From Crocinitomicaceae bacterium (lineage in GTDB: Bacteria; Bacteroidota; Bacteroidia; Flavobacteriales_D; Crocinitomicaceae), in the NCBI GenBank assembly GCA_002709305.1, contig PAQM01000028.1:124001-188000 (forward strand): a DNA stretch of 64,000 nucleotides. The letters run 5' to 3'. The notes beneath the pieces were generated by a model that saw only the letters and a list, made by a program, of their open reading frames with translations, was not told the origin of the DNA and made no database searches. The position numbers were made by a program, and so were the translations under genes. Below are positions 10,368 through 16,830 of this stretch, one piece after another. Numbering within the stretch: the first letter of the stretch is position 1; each line of letters opens with the position of its first letter.

Positions 10368-10412
10368 AAGAGTATAAACTTTAAATAAAGAATTATATTT
10401 ACGCTAAATTAA

Positions 10413-10445
10413 TTTGATATGATTTTAGATAAAATAAAAGGTTTG
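10413..10445 (+). promoter_or_regulatory. Putative promoter and palindrome of the metal ABC operon
   Basis: TTTG at 10413-10416 and AAGGTTTG at 10438-10445 resemble the Bacteroidetes -33 and -7 boxes, separated by 21 bases; the -7 box has one mismatch to TAnnTTTG. Between them lies ATTTTAGATAAAAT (10422-10435), an inverted repeat with six-base arms around GA. That is a plausible place for a repressor to block the promoter. The A+T richness makes chance palindromes common, so this is tentative. It would leave a leader of roughly 115 bases. Confidence 0.35.
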
Positions 10446-10569
10446 CATCTGATTATTTTAAAATTGTATTTTTCCAAAAAATATTCGTTCATATGTTCCC
10501 CTTCTTAAAATTAATAATCAATCACTCAACTAAAATGTTTAATTAAAAACCCTAATATAATTTTTAAAT

Positions 10570-11517
10570 ATGTTATATCTTAAAAAAGATGAAATCAATA
10601 AAAAAATACAATTTAGTATTCTTATTTTCTTATTAGCAATACTAATAAGCTGCGGAGAGGTAAATTATCAAAAAAATCAAAAAATAAAAGTTATTTGTAC
10701 AACAGGTGTGATAGCTGATGCAATAAGTAATATTCTTCCTTCAAATTTTGAGGTAAAATCATTGATGGGACCTGGTGTTGACCCTCATACATATAAAAGC
10801 AAAACATCAGAAATAAAGAATATGATGAATGCAGATGTTATTATATATAATGGAATTGACTTTGAATCAAATTTAATTGATGCAATAGAGGAAATAGGGA
10901 AATACAGTCTCGTTGTTAGTTTAGGAGACATTGTGCCAAAAGATAGGCTCAGGAAAACTAACGATTTTGGAGGCACATATGACCCTCATTTTTGGCACGA
11001 TGTTAATTTATTCGCTAAATCTATTCAGTTGGCAGGTAGGAAGATGTCACTTGAGTTTTCTAGCTATAAAAATTATATCGATTCTTCTTCAAGTTCTTAT
11101 GTTAAAAAGTTAATTGAAACTGAAAAATATGTCAAGAATCAAATTTCTAAAATACCTGATTCTTCAAGAGTTTTAATTACCGCACATGATGCTTTTGGAT
11201 ATTATGGTCGATTATTTGGAATAGAAGTAAAAGGTTTGCAAGGAATTTCTACATCTTCAGATATATCTATAAGAACAATTACTGAATTAACTGATTTTAT
11301 AGTTTCAAGAAATATACCATCAATATTTATTGAAAATTCTGTTTCTCAAAAAAATATTAATTCCGTTATTGAGGGATGTAAATCAAAGGGATTGGATTTA
11401 AAGATTGGTGGAACATTATATAGCGATGGATTAGGAGATTCAAATAGTGGTGCTGATAGTTATATAAAAATGATAAAAAAAAATACTAATTCGATAGTTA
11501 ATGGCCTAACAAAATGA
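10570..11517 (+). CDS. Metal ABC transporter substrate-binding lipoprotein (ZnuA/MntA/YtgA-like)
   Basis: This cluster A-I binding protein captures a divalent metal outside the inner membrane and passes it to the downstream permeases. The N-terminal hydrophobic stretch ends in a lipobox-like LISC near residue 28, so it is probably lipid-anchored. Family features follow: TTGVIADAI, GPGVDPHTYK (first His ligand), DPHFWHDV (second His), IFIENSV (Glu) and a C-terminal YSDGLGD (Asp). A His-His-Glu-Asp set is typical of Mn, Fe or Zn binders. It lacks the His-rich loop of many zinc-specific ZnuA proteins, which leans towards Mn or Fe. The ATPase gene overlaps its stop by four bases. Confidence 0.9.
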   Translation: MLYLKKDEINKKIQFSILIFLLAILISCGEVNYQKNQKIKVICTTGVIADAISNILPSNFEVKSLMGPGVDPHTYKSKTSEIKNMMNADVIIYNGIDFESNLIDAIEEIGKYSLVVSLGDIVPKDRLRKTNDFGGTYDPHFWHDVNLFAKSIQLAGRKMSLEFSSYKNYIDSSSSSYVKKLIETEKYVKNQISKIPDSSRVLITAHDAFGYYGRLFGIEVKGLQGISTSSDISIRTITELTDFIVSRNIPSIFIENSVSQKNINSVIEGCKSKGLDLKIGGTLYSDGLGDSNSGADSYIKMIKKNTNSIVNGLTK

Positions 11518-12287
11518 TTAAGAAAGTGAATGATCCAATAATTGAAGTTCACAATTTAACAGTGTCTTATGATAATAACCCAGTAGTTTGGAATGCTAAT
11601 TTTAGTGTCCCACAAGGTAAAATGGTTGGAATAGTTGGTCCAAACGGCGCTGGTAAATCAACATTACTTAAGTCAATTATGGGGCTTATTCCAAGAAGTA
11701 CTGGAAATATTAAAATATTCAATAAAAATATTAATAGTGTTATTTCAAAAGTAGCTTATGTCCCTCAAAAAGAATCTGTTGATTGGGATTTCCCAGCAAC
11801 GGTTTTTGATGTAGTTGAAATGGGTAGATATGGTAAAAAAAACCTTTTTAAAAGATTGAATAATAATGACAGAAAAATTGTTTCTGAATCATTAGAAAAA
11901 GTGAAAATGGAAAATTATCATGACTATCATATTTCTGAACTTTCAGGGGGACAACAACAACGTGTATTTATTGCAAGAGCTTTGGCACAAGAATCTGATA
12001 TATATTTTATGGACGAACCCTTTTCAGGTATTGATATCGCAACTGAAAAAACAATTTTTCAAGTTTTATTGCAATTAAAAAAAGAAGGGAAAACAATTTT
12101 TGTTGTTCATCATAATTTGCAGTCTGTAATGAACTACTTTGATTGGACAATTTTAATCAACAAAAGAATTATTGCAAGTGGACCAACCTCCGATGTTTTT
12201 ACTCAAGAATTTTTGCGAAGAACTTACGATGGAAACCTAACCTTGGCCGAAAAAACTGAAAAAGATTTAAAAAGAAGTAATTTATAA
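11514..12287 (+). CDS. Metal ABC transporter ATP-binding protein
   Basis: This 257-residue cytoplasmic ATPase energises the metal importer. Walker A GPNGAGKST lies at about residues 43-51, the Q-loop at VAYVPQK, the signature LSGGQQQR at about 143-150, Walker B with its catalytic Glu in YFMDEPF, and the switch His in VVHHNL. The YVPQKESVDWDFP segment is typical of the Mn/Zn/Fe (MntB, ZnuC, YtgB) branch. Its ATG overlaps the stop of the binding-protein gene and the permease follows after 14 bases, so it is part of one operon. Confidence 0.93.
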   Translation: MIKKVNDPIIEVHNLTVSYDNNPVVWNANFSVPQGKMVGIVGPNGAGKSTLLKSIMGLIPRSTGNIKIFNKNINSVISKVAYVPQKESVDWDFPATVFDVVEMGRYGKKNLFKRLNNNDRKIVSESLEKVKMENYHDYHISELSGGQQQRVFIARALAQESDIYFMDEPFSGIDIATEKTIFQVLLQLKKEGKTIFVVHHNLQSVMNYFDWTILINKRIIASGPTSDVFTQEFLRRTYDGNLTLAEKTEKDLKRSNL

Positions 12288-12301
12288 AAACATAATTATA
12301 A

Positions 12302-13585
12302 ATGAGTTTTTGGCGTGATTTAATATATTTTTTTTCATTTCAAGATGCAAATATAAAATATGTTGTTTTAGGAACAATAATTTTGGGCTTCACTTGTGGT
12401 ATTGTCGGTGTTATTGTTGTACTTAGCAAAAAAGCATTAATAGTAGATGCAATTTCACATGCTGTATTACCAGGTATTTGTATTGGATTCATGTTTTCAG
12501 GAGTAAAGAATCCAATATATTTAAGTATTGGAGGGATGATTGCAGGGGCAGCGGCTGTCTATTTAGTGGATTGGATGTCGCGTATTTCAAGAATTAAAAA
12601 AGATGCTTCAATTGCGATCTCTTTATCTATATTTTTCAGTTTTGGTGTAATTCTTCTCAATATTATTCAACATTCAGAAAATAGTAATCAAAGTGGCTTA
12701 ACTGACTTTTTATTCGGTAAAGCGGCAACAATAATCAAATCTGATTTATATATTTTTTCAATAATATTTGGAATAGTAATTTTGACTTTAACAGTCTTTT
12801 ACCAGCATTTTAAAATTCTATTATTTGATAAGTTGTTCGCAACTACTATTGGGTTGAGTGAAAAGTTTGTTCAAGGTCTAATTTCTGGGTTAATTATAAT
12901 CAGTACTTCCATTGGAATTCAAACAGTTGGTATTGTTTTAATGAGTGCTCTTCTTATTACTCCAGCATCCTCTGCGCTATTTTGGACAAATAGCTTTAAA
13001 AAAGCAATTTTATTGTCAGGACTGTTTGCTACATTTAGTAGTGTAATAGGAGTATTTATTTCTTTTTTATCTACTGATATGCCAACCGGACCTTGGATTA
13101 TTGTTGTTCTATCTTTATTTTCTTTATTTTCTGCTTTCTTTTCAAAAAAAGGGCTTGTAGCGAAGAAAATAAAACTTTTAAAAAACAAAAAAAAATTATT
13201 ATCAGACAATATAATAAAAATAATTTATGAAGCTGAAAAGTCAAATAATCAATTTAAGAAGCAAAGAACTTTTAGAGAAATTAAAAATATATATTCAACA
13301 TCATCATCAGAACTAAACTCAGGGATAAAAATTTTAAAAAAACATAACTATTTAAAACACTCACAAGGTTTATATTCTATAACAGATAAAGGGATAATTA
13401 AGGCAAAAAAAATAATTCTGTTAAATGTTTTATGGGAGTTTTACATGGATAAAATATTAGACGTAAACCCTTACCATTTACCAAATGGTTCAGAAACTAT
13501 TAATCAAATTATAACTCCTTCAATCGAAGCCGAATTAATAAAAAGAAATATTGAATTTAAAATTATTACAAAAAATAAAAATTGA
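12302..13585 (+). CDS. Metal ABC permease fused to DtxR-like winged-helix domain (YtgCR-like)
   Basis: Residues 1 to about 280 form an ABC-3 family permease with eight or more membrane helices, including the conserved DAISHAVLPG segment and an ALLITPAS motif. After a Lys-rich linker, residues about 300-372 look like a winged helix (FREIKNIYSTSSSELNSGIKILKKHNYL, then GLYSITDKG). Residues about 375-427 resemble the DtxR/MntR metal-binding and dimerisation domain (LLNVLWEFYMDKIL, then PYHLPNGSE, then ITPSIEAEL). Permeases of this type are normally 280-300 residues, so this is a true fusion. Chlamydia YtgCR has the same architecture and releases its repressor half by cleavage. Only some DtxR metal ligands seem retained. 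The next gene overlaps by four bases. Confidence 0.88.
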   Translation: MSFWRDLIYFFSFQDANIKYVVLGTIILGFTCGIVGVIVVLSKKALIVDAISHAVLPGICIGFMFSGVKNPIYLSIGGMIAGAAAVYLVDWMSRISRIKKDASIAISLSIFFSFGVILLNIIQHSENSNQSGLTDFLFGKAATIIKSDLYIFSIIFGIVILTLTVFYQHFKILLFDKLFATTIGLSEKFVQGLISGLIIISTSIGIQTVGIVLMSALLITPASSALFWTNSFKKAILLSGLFATFSSVIGVFISFLSTDMPTGPWIIVVLSLFSLFSAFFSKKGLVAKKIKLLKNKKKLLSDNIIKIIYEAEKSNNQFKKQRTFREIKNIYSTSSSELNSGIKILKKHNYLKHSQGLYSITDKGIIKAKKIILLNVLWEFYMDKILDVNPYHLPNGSETINQIITPSIEAELIKRNIEFKIITKNKN

Positions 13586-14412
13586 TGTTTGATTTTTGGA
13601 TTATTTTAACTGCTTGTATAATAGCAATAAATTCAAGTTTACTTGGGAGTTTTTTGGTACTTAAAAAAATGAGTTTAATAACCGATGCTCTTTCTCATGC
13701 TGTATTACCTGGAATAGTAATTGCCTTTTTAATATCAGGAGAAATCAATTCTTTTTGGATGCTAATTAGTGCTAGTATTTTTGGAGTTTTGTCTATTATA
13801 ATAATAGATTGGTTAAATAATGTGGGTGGATATAGTAAAGACAGCGCTATAGGTATTATATACACCTTACTATTTGCCGTAGGGATTATATTAATTACTT
13901 CAAAGGCAAGAAACTCAGATATTGATGTGGAATGTGTTTTATTTGGAGATATTAATACTGTTCCTATTATTAAAAATCCTTTAGGAATACCAACTCCAAC
14001 TTTTAATCTTTCGATTATATTATTTGTAGTCAGTTTAATTATGTATTATGGTATAAAAGGATTCAAAATAAGTAGTTTTGATAAAAATTATGCAAGCTCA
14101 ATAGGTGTTTCAGTAACCTTTTGGAGCTATCTACTACTTTCTCTTACAAGTATATCAACAGTTTTTAGTTTTGATAGCGTTGGAGCGATTATGGTGATCG
14201 GTTTAATGGTTATTCCACCTTCTTTTGCTAATTTAATTACGAGAAAATTATCTGTTTTTTTAATTTCGGCAGTTCTTTTTGGAGTTTTTTGCTGTATAAT
14301 TGGACATTTAATTGCAATTTTAATAGATATCCCAACTGTTCCCACTATATGTGTTTTAATGGGTATAATTTTAGTTTTAACTGTAATTTTAAAATCGATA
14401 AAACAAAGTTAA
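13582..14412 (+). CDS. Metal ABC transporter permease, second subunit
   Basis: This 276-residue ABC-3 permease is the partner of the preceding fused permease. It has about eight hydrophobic helices, the DALSHAVLPGI motif in the second helix region, and the C-terminal MVIGLMVIPPSFANL segment that corresponds to the coupling region. It lacks any regulatory extension. The ATG overlaps the upstream stop by four bases, indicating translational coupling and equal subunit amounts. No strong terminator is visible in the 80 bases before the convergent aspartate kinase stop, only an A+T-rich seven-base stem. Confidence 0.92.
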   Translation: MMFDFWIILTACIIAINSSLLGSFLVLKKMSLITDALSHAVLPGIVIAFLISGEINSFWMLISASIFGVLSIIIIDWLNNVGGYSKDSAIGIIYTLLFAVGIILITSKARNSDIDVECVLFGDINTVPIIKNPLGIPTPTFNLSIILFVVSLIMYYGIKGFKISSFDKNYASSIGVSVTFWSYLLLSLTSISTVFSFDSVGAIMVIGLMVIPPSFANLITRKLSVFLISAVLFGVFCCIIGHLIAILIDIPTVPTICVLMGIILVLTVILKSIKQS

Positions 14413-14493: not shown

Positions 14494-15771
14494 TTATTTG
14501 TCTTTTGATTTTATAACTAAACGAGCCGTTTCACGAGTTATTTGTTTTAAAATAACTTCTTTGTTTACCGTTAGTTGTTTTATGGTTTCTGAGTTATAAT
14601 GTCTAATTGTAACTAACTCTAATCCTGTATTATACCTCACTTGATAATTGTCCGTAAACAATAGTAAAAGTTTTTGAATATTAACCTTATCTGCATCTAA
14701 TACAATTGAAAATTGTAAAGCAGAATTCTGCATCAAATTAATCTTAGCATTAGCTTTTGAAAGTCGATTAAAAATATCACTTAAATTGTCTTCTACAATA
14801 AAGGAAAAGTCTTTTGGTGTAAACGAAAAAAGAACTTGGTTCATCTTAAAAATAAAAGAAGGGACTAATTTGTCATTTAAAATACATGAGTCTATTATAG
14901 TACCATCAGCCTTCGGGTTTTTAAATGACTTTACATAAAGAGGTATGTTTTTATTTTGAAGTGGTTTTATTGTCTTTGGATGAATTACAGAGGCACCATA
15001 ATATGAAAGTTCAATTGCTTCTCTAAAAGATATTTTTTCTAATTTAATTGTATTATCAAACCATTTTGGATCAGCATTTAACATACCTGGAACGTCCTTC
15101 CAAATTGTAACATCTTGGGCACAACAGCAATAAGCAACTATTGCAGCAGTGAAATCAGAACCTTCTCTCCCTAATGTTGTTGTAAATCCGTCGGAATTAT
15201 GACCAACAAAACCTTGAATTATCTGAAAATCATATTTATCATATTGAGATAGAAAATCAGCTTGGAACAATGATGTTGTAATCTCCCAATTAACCTCAGC
15301 TTCACTGTAGCATTTATTTGTCCTTATTAGCTTCTTTGCATCTACAAGCCTTGCATTAAAGCCTTCTTGAATTAAAAATTCACTGATGATTTTTGTTGAA
15401 ATTTCTTCACCAAAACTTACAACTTGATCATATACAAAATCATAATTTTCACAATTACTAGATTCATACATAGAACTTAAAAGAACAAAAGTTTCTGAAA
15501 CACTATTATAAACATCATTCGTTCTATCATTAAATAGTTCTTCTATAATAGAAAAATGAAATTGCCTACACACCTCTATTTTTTCTTCAAATAATTCTTT
15601 TTTTCTGTTTATCAAACAATTAACCGTCTTCTCTAATAGATTAGTTGTCTTTCCCATTGCTGAAATGACAATTGCTAATTTCTCATTATCATATAGAGAA
15701 ATAATACTAGCGATATTTCTAATTGATTTAGCATCCTTTACAGAAGCACCACCAAACTTGAAAACTTTCAT
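14494..15771 (-). CDS. lysC: Aspartate kinase
   Basis: Aspartate kinase phosphorylates L-aspartate, the committed step to lysine, threonine, methionine and diaminopimelate. The 425-residue protein begins with the KFGGASV nucleotide-binding motif (residues 4-10). It carries GREGSDFTAA in the kinase core and IWKDVPGMLNADPK, then IHPKTIKPLQ. The C-terminal 130 residues look like regulatory ACT domains, so feedback inhibition by an amino-acid end product is likely. It is monofunctional, with no homoserine dehydrogenase. The gene lies 60 bases after gpsA in the same direction. The symbol lysC is by analogy; the effector is not known. Confidence 0.9.
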   Translation of the reverse strand: MKVFKFGGASVKDAKSIRNIASIISLYDNEKLAIVISAMGKTTNLLEKTVNCLINRKKELFEEKIEVCRQFHFSIIEELFNDRTNDVYNSVSETFVLLSSMYESSNCENYDFVYDQVVSFGEEISTKIISEFLIQEGFNARLVDAKKLIRTNKCYSEAEVNWEITTSLFQADFLSQYDKYDFQIIQGFVGHNSDGFTTTLGREGSDFTAAIVAYCCCAQDVTIWKDVPGMLNADPKWFDNTIKLEKISFREAIELSYYGASVIHPKTIKPLQNKNIPLYVKSFKNPKADGTIIDSCILNDKLVPSFIFKMNQVLFSFTPKDFSFIVEDNLSDIFNRLSKANAKINLMQNSALQFSIVLDADKVNIQKLLLLFTDNYQVRYNTGLELVTIRHYNSETIKQLTVNKEVILKQITRETARLVIKSKDK

Positions 15772-15831
15772 TTAATTTATTTCTAATAATTATTTAATAT
15801 TTACAAGGTAAATAAATATTCGAATTAACTA

Positions 15832-16830
15832 TTAATTTAATCTATCTGTTAATATCCTCATTTCTATTACAGGAGATATCTTCTCATAGAGAATATTATT
15901 CACAGCTTCAACTATCGGCATTTCAACTTGAAACTTCTTTTTGATTTCCATCAAACTTTTAGCAGCATAAAATCCCTCGGCAATCATGTCCATTTCTAGT
16001 TGAGCTGATTTAACCGAATAACCCTTCCCAATCATATAACCAAATGTTCTGTTTCTAGAAAACTTAGAATATGCTGTAACTAATAAATCCCCTAAATAGG
16101 CTGATGATTTAACATCTCGATGAATCGGACTCATTTCATCAATTAAATTTTCAGTTTCCTGAATTGCATTTGAAATAAGAACAGCCTGAAAATTATCACC
16201 ATAACCTAATCCGGAACATATCCCTGAAGCTATAGAGTATACATTTTTTAAGACCGCAGAAATTTCTGTACCAATTAAATCATCTGAAATTGTAGTTTTA
16301 ATATATCTACATGCTAATATTTCTGCCATTTCTTCGGCTAACTCCTCATCTTGACAAGCAACTGTTAAATATGAAAGCCTCTCTAAAGCAACTTCTTCTG
16401 CATGACAAGGCCCACATATAATTCCAATACGATCATAGGGTATTCTAAAAGTCTTATGGATAAACCGAGCGGGTATAGCATTATACTCAGGTATAATACC
16501 TTTTACAGAAGAGAAAACTATTTTTTCATTAAATAACTCGGGAGGACAATTTTCAAACAAATTAACCAAGAAGGCAGATGGAGATGCAATAATTACAATG
16601 TCTACTGGTCTAACTACTTCAGCCAAGTCAATACTAACATTAATTTTATTTAAATCAATCTCAACTGATTGTAAATAATTAGGATTATGTCTATATTTTA
16701 AAATATGATCTACTGCTGTTTCATTTCTCATATACCAATTTAATGAATCAACATTATTACTTAAAATTTTAATAAGAGCAGTAGCCCAACTACCACCACC
16801 AATTACAGCTATTTTTTTACTATCACTCAT
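15832..16830 (-). CDS. gpsA: Glycerol-3-phosphate dehydrogenase [NAD(P)+]
   Basis: GpsA reduces dihydroxyacetone phosphate to sn-glycerol 3-phosphate for phospholipid synthesis. The 332 residues match the family. The N-terminal dinucleotide-binding motif is GGGSWATAL, followed by NPNYLQSVEI. The middle contains FSSVKGI and GPCHAEEVA, and the catalytic-domain AVLKNVYSIASGI with the essential Lys, then SSAYLGDLLVTAYS and SRNRTFGYMIG. It follows the histidine kinase by 48 bases, and that gap contains an exact -7 promoter box, so it may have its own transcript. Confidence 0.95.
   Translation of the reverse strand: MSDSKKIAVIGGGSWATALIKILSNNVDSLNWYMRNETAVDHILKYRHNPNYLQSVEIDLNKINVSIDLAEVVRPVDIVIIASPSAFLVNLFENCPPELFNEKIVFSSVKGIIPEYNAIPARFIHKTFRIPYDRIGIICGPCHAEEVALERLSYLTVACQDEELAEEMAEILACRYIKTTISDDLIGTEISAVLKNVYSIASGICSGLGYGDNFQAVLISNAIQETENLIDEMSPIHRDVKSSAYLGDLLVTAYSKFSRNRTFGYMIGKGYSVKSAQLEMDMIAEGFYAAKSLMEIKKKFQVEMPIVEAVNNILYEKISPVIEMRILTDRLN

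Follow-up and report, generated by a model that had tools for sequence, protein, structure and literature searches.

A DtxR-derived tail on a metal-importer permease of Bacteroidota: a possible transporter-borne sensor that is probably decaying in one Crocinitomicaceae bacterium

To our knowledge, the only DtxR-type regulator in Chlamydia is a domain fused to the permease of a metal importer, YtgCR. The metal-coordinating residues of the regulator half, YtgR, are reported to be highly conserved (PMC5599777), and cleavage is reported to release a fragment of 28–30 kDa with binding to the ytg promoter (PMC5599777, PMC7755916). Here we describe a similar fusion in a 64,000-nucleotide stretch of DNA from a Crocinitomicaceae bacterium (contig PAQM01000028.1; hereafter the window), where one open frame of 427 amino acids without internal stop (12302–13585) joins an ABC-3 permease to a C-terminal DtxR-like domain. 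Both the uninterrupted permease–regulator frame and the gene order of chlamydial ytgA-B-CR-D had been proposed in a first-pass annotation of the sequence, and both are borne out. Compared by published description, and as far as that description goes, the locus thus resembles YtgCR in having the two domains in one frame and in its A-B-CR-D order, but differs in that four metal ligands are replaced, a separate DtxR is encoded in the same genome and the operon has no copy of a box, TTAG-N6-CTAA, that precedes most of its relatives. The fusion is already known from Chlamydia, and the form in Bacteroidota is a variant of it. Among titles and abstract openings of the open-licence literature in PMC we found no report of such a fusion outside Chlamydia, Bacteroidota included. 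Proteins from other phyla that combine these domains are presumably already recorded in databases.

A second group of close systems comprises the manganese and zinc importers PsaBC, TroCD and MntABC, which share the anatomy of this importer; the permease of an intact member of the family described here (L114) matches PsaBC, but the solved permease chains have 258–290 residues and no such tail. In a third group, MetNI and ModBC, a trans-inhibition domain sits on the ATPase and is unrelated in sequence. On the evidence below we lean, by a modest degree, towards the reading that the tail is in this family a transporter-borne metal sensor, probably serving feedback on import, and that it has decayed in the window.

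The ancestry of the tail lies with regulators of the DtxR type. Alone, the window tail reaches 15.2 bits within the whole protein and 18.2 bits as an isolated fragment for the Pfam model Fe_dep_repr_C, under the cut-off of 27, and phmmer, given this single sequence, finds no convincing relative in the PDB (best E 0.45). When a profile of 22 tails (the window and 21 homologues) is searched against the PDB, it matches the metal-dependent regulator 5zr4 at E 2.6e-19, SloR at 1.3e-18, DtxR at about 1e-12 and the B. subtilis-type MntR at about 1e-7, with IdeR also matched. A chance winged-helix resemblance, which the Pfam score of the single sequence might have suggested, is rejected by these clear profile matches. 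The AlphaFold2 model of the fused protein of the window has a mean predicted local distance difference test score of 88.7; Foldseek matches it to PsaBC over the permease (E 1e-15) and to DtxR and MntR weakly by E-value (0.014 and up), with a probability of 1.00 and template-modelling scores by target of up to 0.74. The model of L114 aligns to PsaBC (7kyp_F) over 283 residues (Z 35.7, root-mean-square deviation 2.9) and to DtxR (2qq9) over 134 residues (Z 16.9, root-mean-square deviation 2.3). A library of viral structures gave no match at E ≤ 0.001. The profile and structure matches of the window and of L114 therefore place the tail in the DtxR line of descent, and the family assignment made in the first-pass annotation holds by profile search and by structure prediction alike.

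Nor is the fusion an isolated oddity. A survey of Bacteroidota, suggested by the same annotation, finds that 67 of 395 sampled genomes match a profile built from 22 of the fused proteins (A2) at E ≤ 1e-60. In 27 of these, the window included, the match covers the DtxR tail in full, while 38 stop near profile position 370; of the remaining two, one (G315) ends at position 309 beside a contig end and the other (G484) is tail-less. Matches are also present in 28 of the 99 genomes examined as relatives, in 62 of 399 genomes searched at the level of the order (E ≤ 1e-50) and, at full length, in two of the 34 genomes of the window's own genus. The comparisons below use 40 fused proteins, that is, the window and 39 further loci (L033, sets of 17 and 20, and L151). 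Outside this set stand G028, which has runs of N, together with G041, G070, G227, G254, G135, G367 and G414, and further matches of the order-level search, among which sequences were retrieved for G600 and G733 alone. Two other arrangements were seen. One genome (G086, L027) has a permease frame that stops at 317 amino acids with an unrelated end, and a genome of the same genus as the window (G006:C42:62641–63785) has two nearby DtxR-type matches, one of them in a 357-amino-acid frame, where it spans profile positions 264–428 and begins ahead of the DtxR domain.

What the fused tails have kept differs from what they have lost. At E ≤ 0.01, the threshold for the Pfam domain counts in the fused proteins, the metal-binding and dimerisation domain PF02742 is recognised in 39 of the 40 fused proteins, with the window as the sole miss. 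The tails resemble DtxR, IdeR, MntR and SloR in fold (as in L114 against 2qq9) and, in 39 of 40, in most metal ligands; they differ in being bound to a permease, in that the DNA-binding domain PF01325 is recognised in none of the 40, and in that FeoA is found in only one. As a control, each of the three domains is present in all 26 standalone DtxRs considered, 25 of them from operons shared with a fusion and one from the genome of the window. With the residue numbers and ligand roles of DtxR mapped by alignment, all 25 fused copies from operons that hold both kinds of protein have the equivalents of H79, E83, H98, C102 (as Glu), E105 and H106, and from this we infer that intact tails bind metal. 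In the same 25 operons the recognition helix has a mean pairwise identity of 0.26 among fused copies against 0.58 among standalone ones; divided by the value for the remainder of the winged helix, this gives 0.84 (bootstrap 0.75–0.91) for the fused and 1.33 (1.26–1.40) for the standalone proteins. Between G284 and K306, 39 of 40 fused proteins have a linker of 22 residues, which the model shows as a helix at the base of the winged helix, and the distance between K306 and the point where the recognition helix ends is more variable, at 34 to 44. Judged by these alignments, the tail of the family has the look of a metal-binding module anchored to the permease, and not that of a sequence-specific repressor on a loose linker.

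Transcription appears to be served by a different protein. A standalone DtxR lies in the gene cluster at 25 of the 40 fused loci, upstream of the binding-protein gene in 24 and after the last permease in one (L109); at the other 15 loci it is found elsewhere in 13 genomes, including that of the window (L063), and 38 of the 40 genomes with the fusion have one in all. The box TTAG-N6-CTAA stands upstream of 25 of 38 operons, namely 25 of 35 of type A, with a DtxR-derived tail, and none of three of type B, with another kind of tail that is described below; four type A loci in which no binding-protein gene was recognised fall outside this count. Shuffling the 38 stretches gave a mean of 0.37 boxes and a maximum of 2, and among spacings of 2 to 12 only 6 is enriched. 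The box is likewise found before ten of ten operons that lack the fusion but include a linked DtxR (L164, L165, L180–L187), with linkage taken from coordinates; the count was nine with the first choice of start codons and ten after the starts were reset. It also precedes the unlinked DtxR genes of G705, G715 and the genome of the window (G000). Since it occurs in operons without the fusion and at DtxR genes, the box is associated with standalone DtxRs, and its presence does not depend on the tail. It is likely to be the operator of the standalone DtxR, as predicted from sequence. In the genome of the window the standalone protein (G000:C15:78831–79223) keeps all metal ligands, and its gene is divergent from that of a TonB-dependent receptor, with the box between them at −48 (L063:1–2172). 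A scan of this genome with one mismatch allowed gave 51 places per strand compared to 67 for a reversed control, and therefore no regulon can be read from the scan.

The copy in the window shows signs of decay, and its tail has quite probably ceased to function. Four ligands, each kept in 39 of the 40 fused proteins, are replaced: N375, P394, N401 and Q402 stand for H, H, E and H, the equivalents of DtxR H79, H98, E105 and H106. E379, H392 and E398 are retained. The first-pass annotation had described the metal-site residues as only partly conserved, which was correct and an understatement. A frameshift is ruled out as the origin of these replacements, as the protein aligns in frame on both sides of the ligand motif. 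The DPH motif is absent from the window tail, and its His is missing in seven of the 40 fused proteins. A close relative, L033, keeps the four ligands, lacks the DPH motif and has a linked DtxR in its operon. Measured with eight outgroups, the branch of the tail is 1.35 in the window and 0.47 in L033, compared to 0.12 and 0.17 for the permease. The tail has 27 columns that do not vary among the outgroups, and 15 of them are kept in the window and 21 in L033; for 61 such permease columns the numbers are 50 and 49. Model confidence over residues 391–420 is 52–60 in the window and 73–89 in the intact L114.

The surroundings of the window operon give a similar picture. There is no TTAG-N6-CTAA within 250 bases before the operon, where the best candidates have two mismatches in the eight fixed bases; a scan of the whole window found 5 matches (2.2 expected), none ahead of the operon. 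The inverted repeats ahead of the operon are A/T-rich ones only, and among frames of at least 100 amino acids in the window none besides the fusion matches the profile of the DtxR tail. Ligands lost, a fast-evolving tail, no box and no linked DtxR together indicate that the window tail is probably a decaying remnant. The nearest relatives found, G705 and G715 (L157 and L158), are 80% identical over residues 1–295, but their permease ends at 305 amino acids and is followed directly by the next permease. Neither operon has a box upstream or a linked DtxR. Upstream of the binding-protein gene, L157 has a palindrome-like GTATACA-N3-TGTATAC, with an imperfect copy in L158, at the place where many relatives have the DtxR box; it is possibly the site of another regulator.

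The preferred reading joins these observations as follows. An intact tail would be attached on the cytosolic side of the permease through a helix of fixed length, with the metal sites of DtxR kept. Transcription would most likely be controlled by the separate, complete DtxR at TTAG-N6-CTAA, and the tail would most likely read internal metal and then restrain the importer itself, as in trans-inhibited ABC importers. By analogy, the ligands that the tails of the family bear and the place where they are attached would suit such an importer: as in MetNI and ModBC, a cytosolic domain is added that might sense substrate inside the cell and reduce its uptake, but here the domain is on the permease and derived from DtxR, and inhibition by it would be a supposition. 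In the window, with most metal ligands lost, the tail would probably be a decaying, metal-blind remnant. The frame might persist for lack of time, or perhaps because translation of the next permease is coupled to it; a possible start ATG of that permease, at 13585, overlaps the TGA stop of the fused gene (13583–13585).

Several points weigh against this. Feedback on transport by an intact tail is the tentative part, which we would place a little short of evenly balanced. Binding to DNA of another kind may occur in fused tails: at the Pfam threshold used above, MarR_2 matches two of the 40, and MarR, Rrf2, SarA/Rot, CggR_N and CvfB_WH match one each, and the region of the recognition helix is still net positive in the fused proteins (1.44 vs 1.88). 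Among the nine closest operons the recognition helix of the fused copies is conserved about as well as the remaining winged helix (0.347 vs 0.333), where the standalone proteins have 0.736 against 0.538. The linker is also not special in its fixed length, segments of the permease itself being equally fixed (in 37–40 of 40). The box is found at just three of ten DtxR genes (L189–L198) where the fused operon has no DtxR upstream. In G300 and G316 the fusion is present and no standalone DtxR was found in the genome, so the tail could still be a regulator there. These two genomes (L128 and L130) are of 2.3–2.4 Mb and rated 100% complete; no binding-protein or ATPase gene is recognised within 5.9 kb around the fusion, and theirs is the arrangement closest to the chlamydial one among those compared. 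The branching of the window, L033 and G705/G715 is weak (support 77), and the decay of the tail and its deletion may therefore be separate events. Finally, the pairwise ratio of nonsynonymous to synonymous substitution (dN/dS) between the window and L033 is about 0.29 over linker and tail, which is not neutral, and 0.05 in the permease, with dS near saturation.

The value for linker and tail, being below 1 in a frame that is still open, would also be compatible with a window tail that has been repurposed, either to sense another ligand or to stabilise the importer, and the retained E379, H392 and E398 would suit such a role. However, the loss of nearly half of the outgroup-invariant tail columns (15 of 27 kept, with 50 of 61 in the permease), the low model confidence at 391–420 and the occurrence of the importer without any tail in G705 and G715 make this unlikely. 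Slightly less probable still is a pairing of the tail, by way of its dimerisation part, with the standalone DtxR, which would thereby be retained at the membrane and informed of the flux of the transporter, in the manner of MalK and MalT. The presence of both proteins in one operon at 25 of 40 loci would agree with this, as would the better conservation of the dimerisation part (identity 0.50, compared to 0.31 for the winged helix), but the linked partner is missing at 15 of 40 loci, two genomes have none, and docking alone leaves the metal ligands kept in 25 of 25 copies unexplained. Least probable, and by our estimate very unlikely, is the cleaved, autoregulating repressor of the first-pass annotation, a tail cut from the permease that represses its own operon with metal: fusion, gene order and DtxR ancestry are shared with the chlamydial system, of whose fused YtgR cleavage and binding to the ytg promoter have been described (PMC5599777, PMC7755916), and such a repressor is possible in G300 and G316, yet in the window the ligands are replaced and the operon lacks the box, the genome has a standalone DtxR with all its ligands (as 38 of 40 have one), PF01325 is absent from every fused protein and present in every standalone one, the fused recognition helix is poorly conserved, and the nearest relatives do without the tail.

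The remaining anatomy of the operon agrees with its role in import. The four open reading frames of the first-pass annotation are confirmed at their positions by Pfam matches (Table 1). For the binding protein the top NCBIfam matches are AztC and MntC, both under the cut-off, and the ATPase matches PRK15056 (Mn/Fe) at E 1.7e-73, also under the cut-off. Within the tail, the winged helix covers approximately residues 300–360 and the metal-binding and dimerisation part begins at 361. A binding protein, an ATPase and two ABC-3 permeases stand together, as in importers of the ABC-3 Tro/Psa/Mnt/Znu kind, and the operon is predicted to encode an ABC-type importer whose substrate is a divalent transition metal.

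Table 1. Features of the fused importer operon, in window coordinates
Feature	Position	Strand	Basis
Upstream region without the TTAG-N6-CTAA box seen before most relatives' operons	10368..10569	+	Box scans
Metal-binding lipoprotein / substrate-binding protein, ZnuA/TroA type	10570..11517	+	Pfam PF01297 E 1.8e-59
Metal importer ABC ATPase	11514..12287	+	Pfam PF00005 E 9e-31
Fused protein, ABC-3 permease half, residues 1–280	12302..13141	+	PF00950 E 8.5e-57 (residues 16–280); Foldseek PsaBC 7kyp E 1e-15
Predicted helix linking membrane part to winged helix, residues 285–314	13154..13243	+	AlphaFold2 secondary structure; fixed linker length
DtxR-derived tail, residues 294–427	13181..13582	+	Profile vs PDB E 2.6e-19; ligand table; PF02742 not recognised
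Second ABC-3 permease, tail-less	13582..14412	+	PF00950 E 1e-48

Beyond the operon, at 14494–16830, genes for an aspartokinase-like amino-acid kinase and a glycerol-3-phosphate dehydrogenase lie convergent to it. In L157 and L158 relatives of these two genes precede the operon on the same strand, and the difference in orientation therefore points to a local rearrangement in one lineage. As the operon of G705 and G715 adjoins matches to the same kinase and dehydrogenase, that of the window looks native to its genome. A plasmid search returned no record reaching 80% coverage.

A second kind of tail is found in the type B operons (21 loci; L110–L112 and L133–L150), in which each of the two ABC-3 permeases bears a winged-helix-like tail that lacks the dimerisation part of DtxR. 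The PermC tails have two His in 21 of 21, and the PermD tails have His and His in 21 of 21, followed by Glu in 20, His in 19 and His in 21; in the tails of L134 and L138 Pfam names nothing above its cut-off. From these residues, they look like metal-binding tails. A wider picture, which we put forward with some reserve, is that in Bacteroidota parts of winged-helix regulators have at least twice become importer-borne metal sensors that gate import beside a DtxR repressor, once as type A, derived from DtxR with its metal sites kept and the reading of DNA dropped, and once as the His-rich type B on both permeases, with loss now under way in the window.

If this is true, a metal-sensing transcription factor would have been rebuilt as a part of a transporter, and one domain family would sense metal at the level of both transcription and transport. 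It would also offer a route, outside pathogens, to how a membrane-bound DtxR domain such as that of chlamydial YtgCR can act. The series of an intact tail in L033, a decayed one in the window and none in G705 and G715 would then be a natural experiment on the role of the tail.

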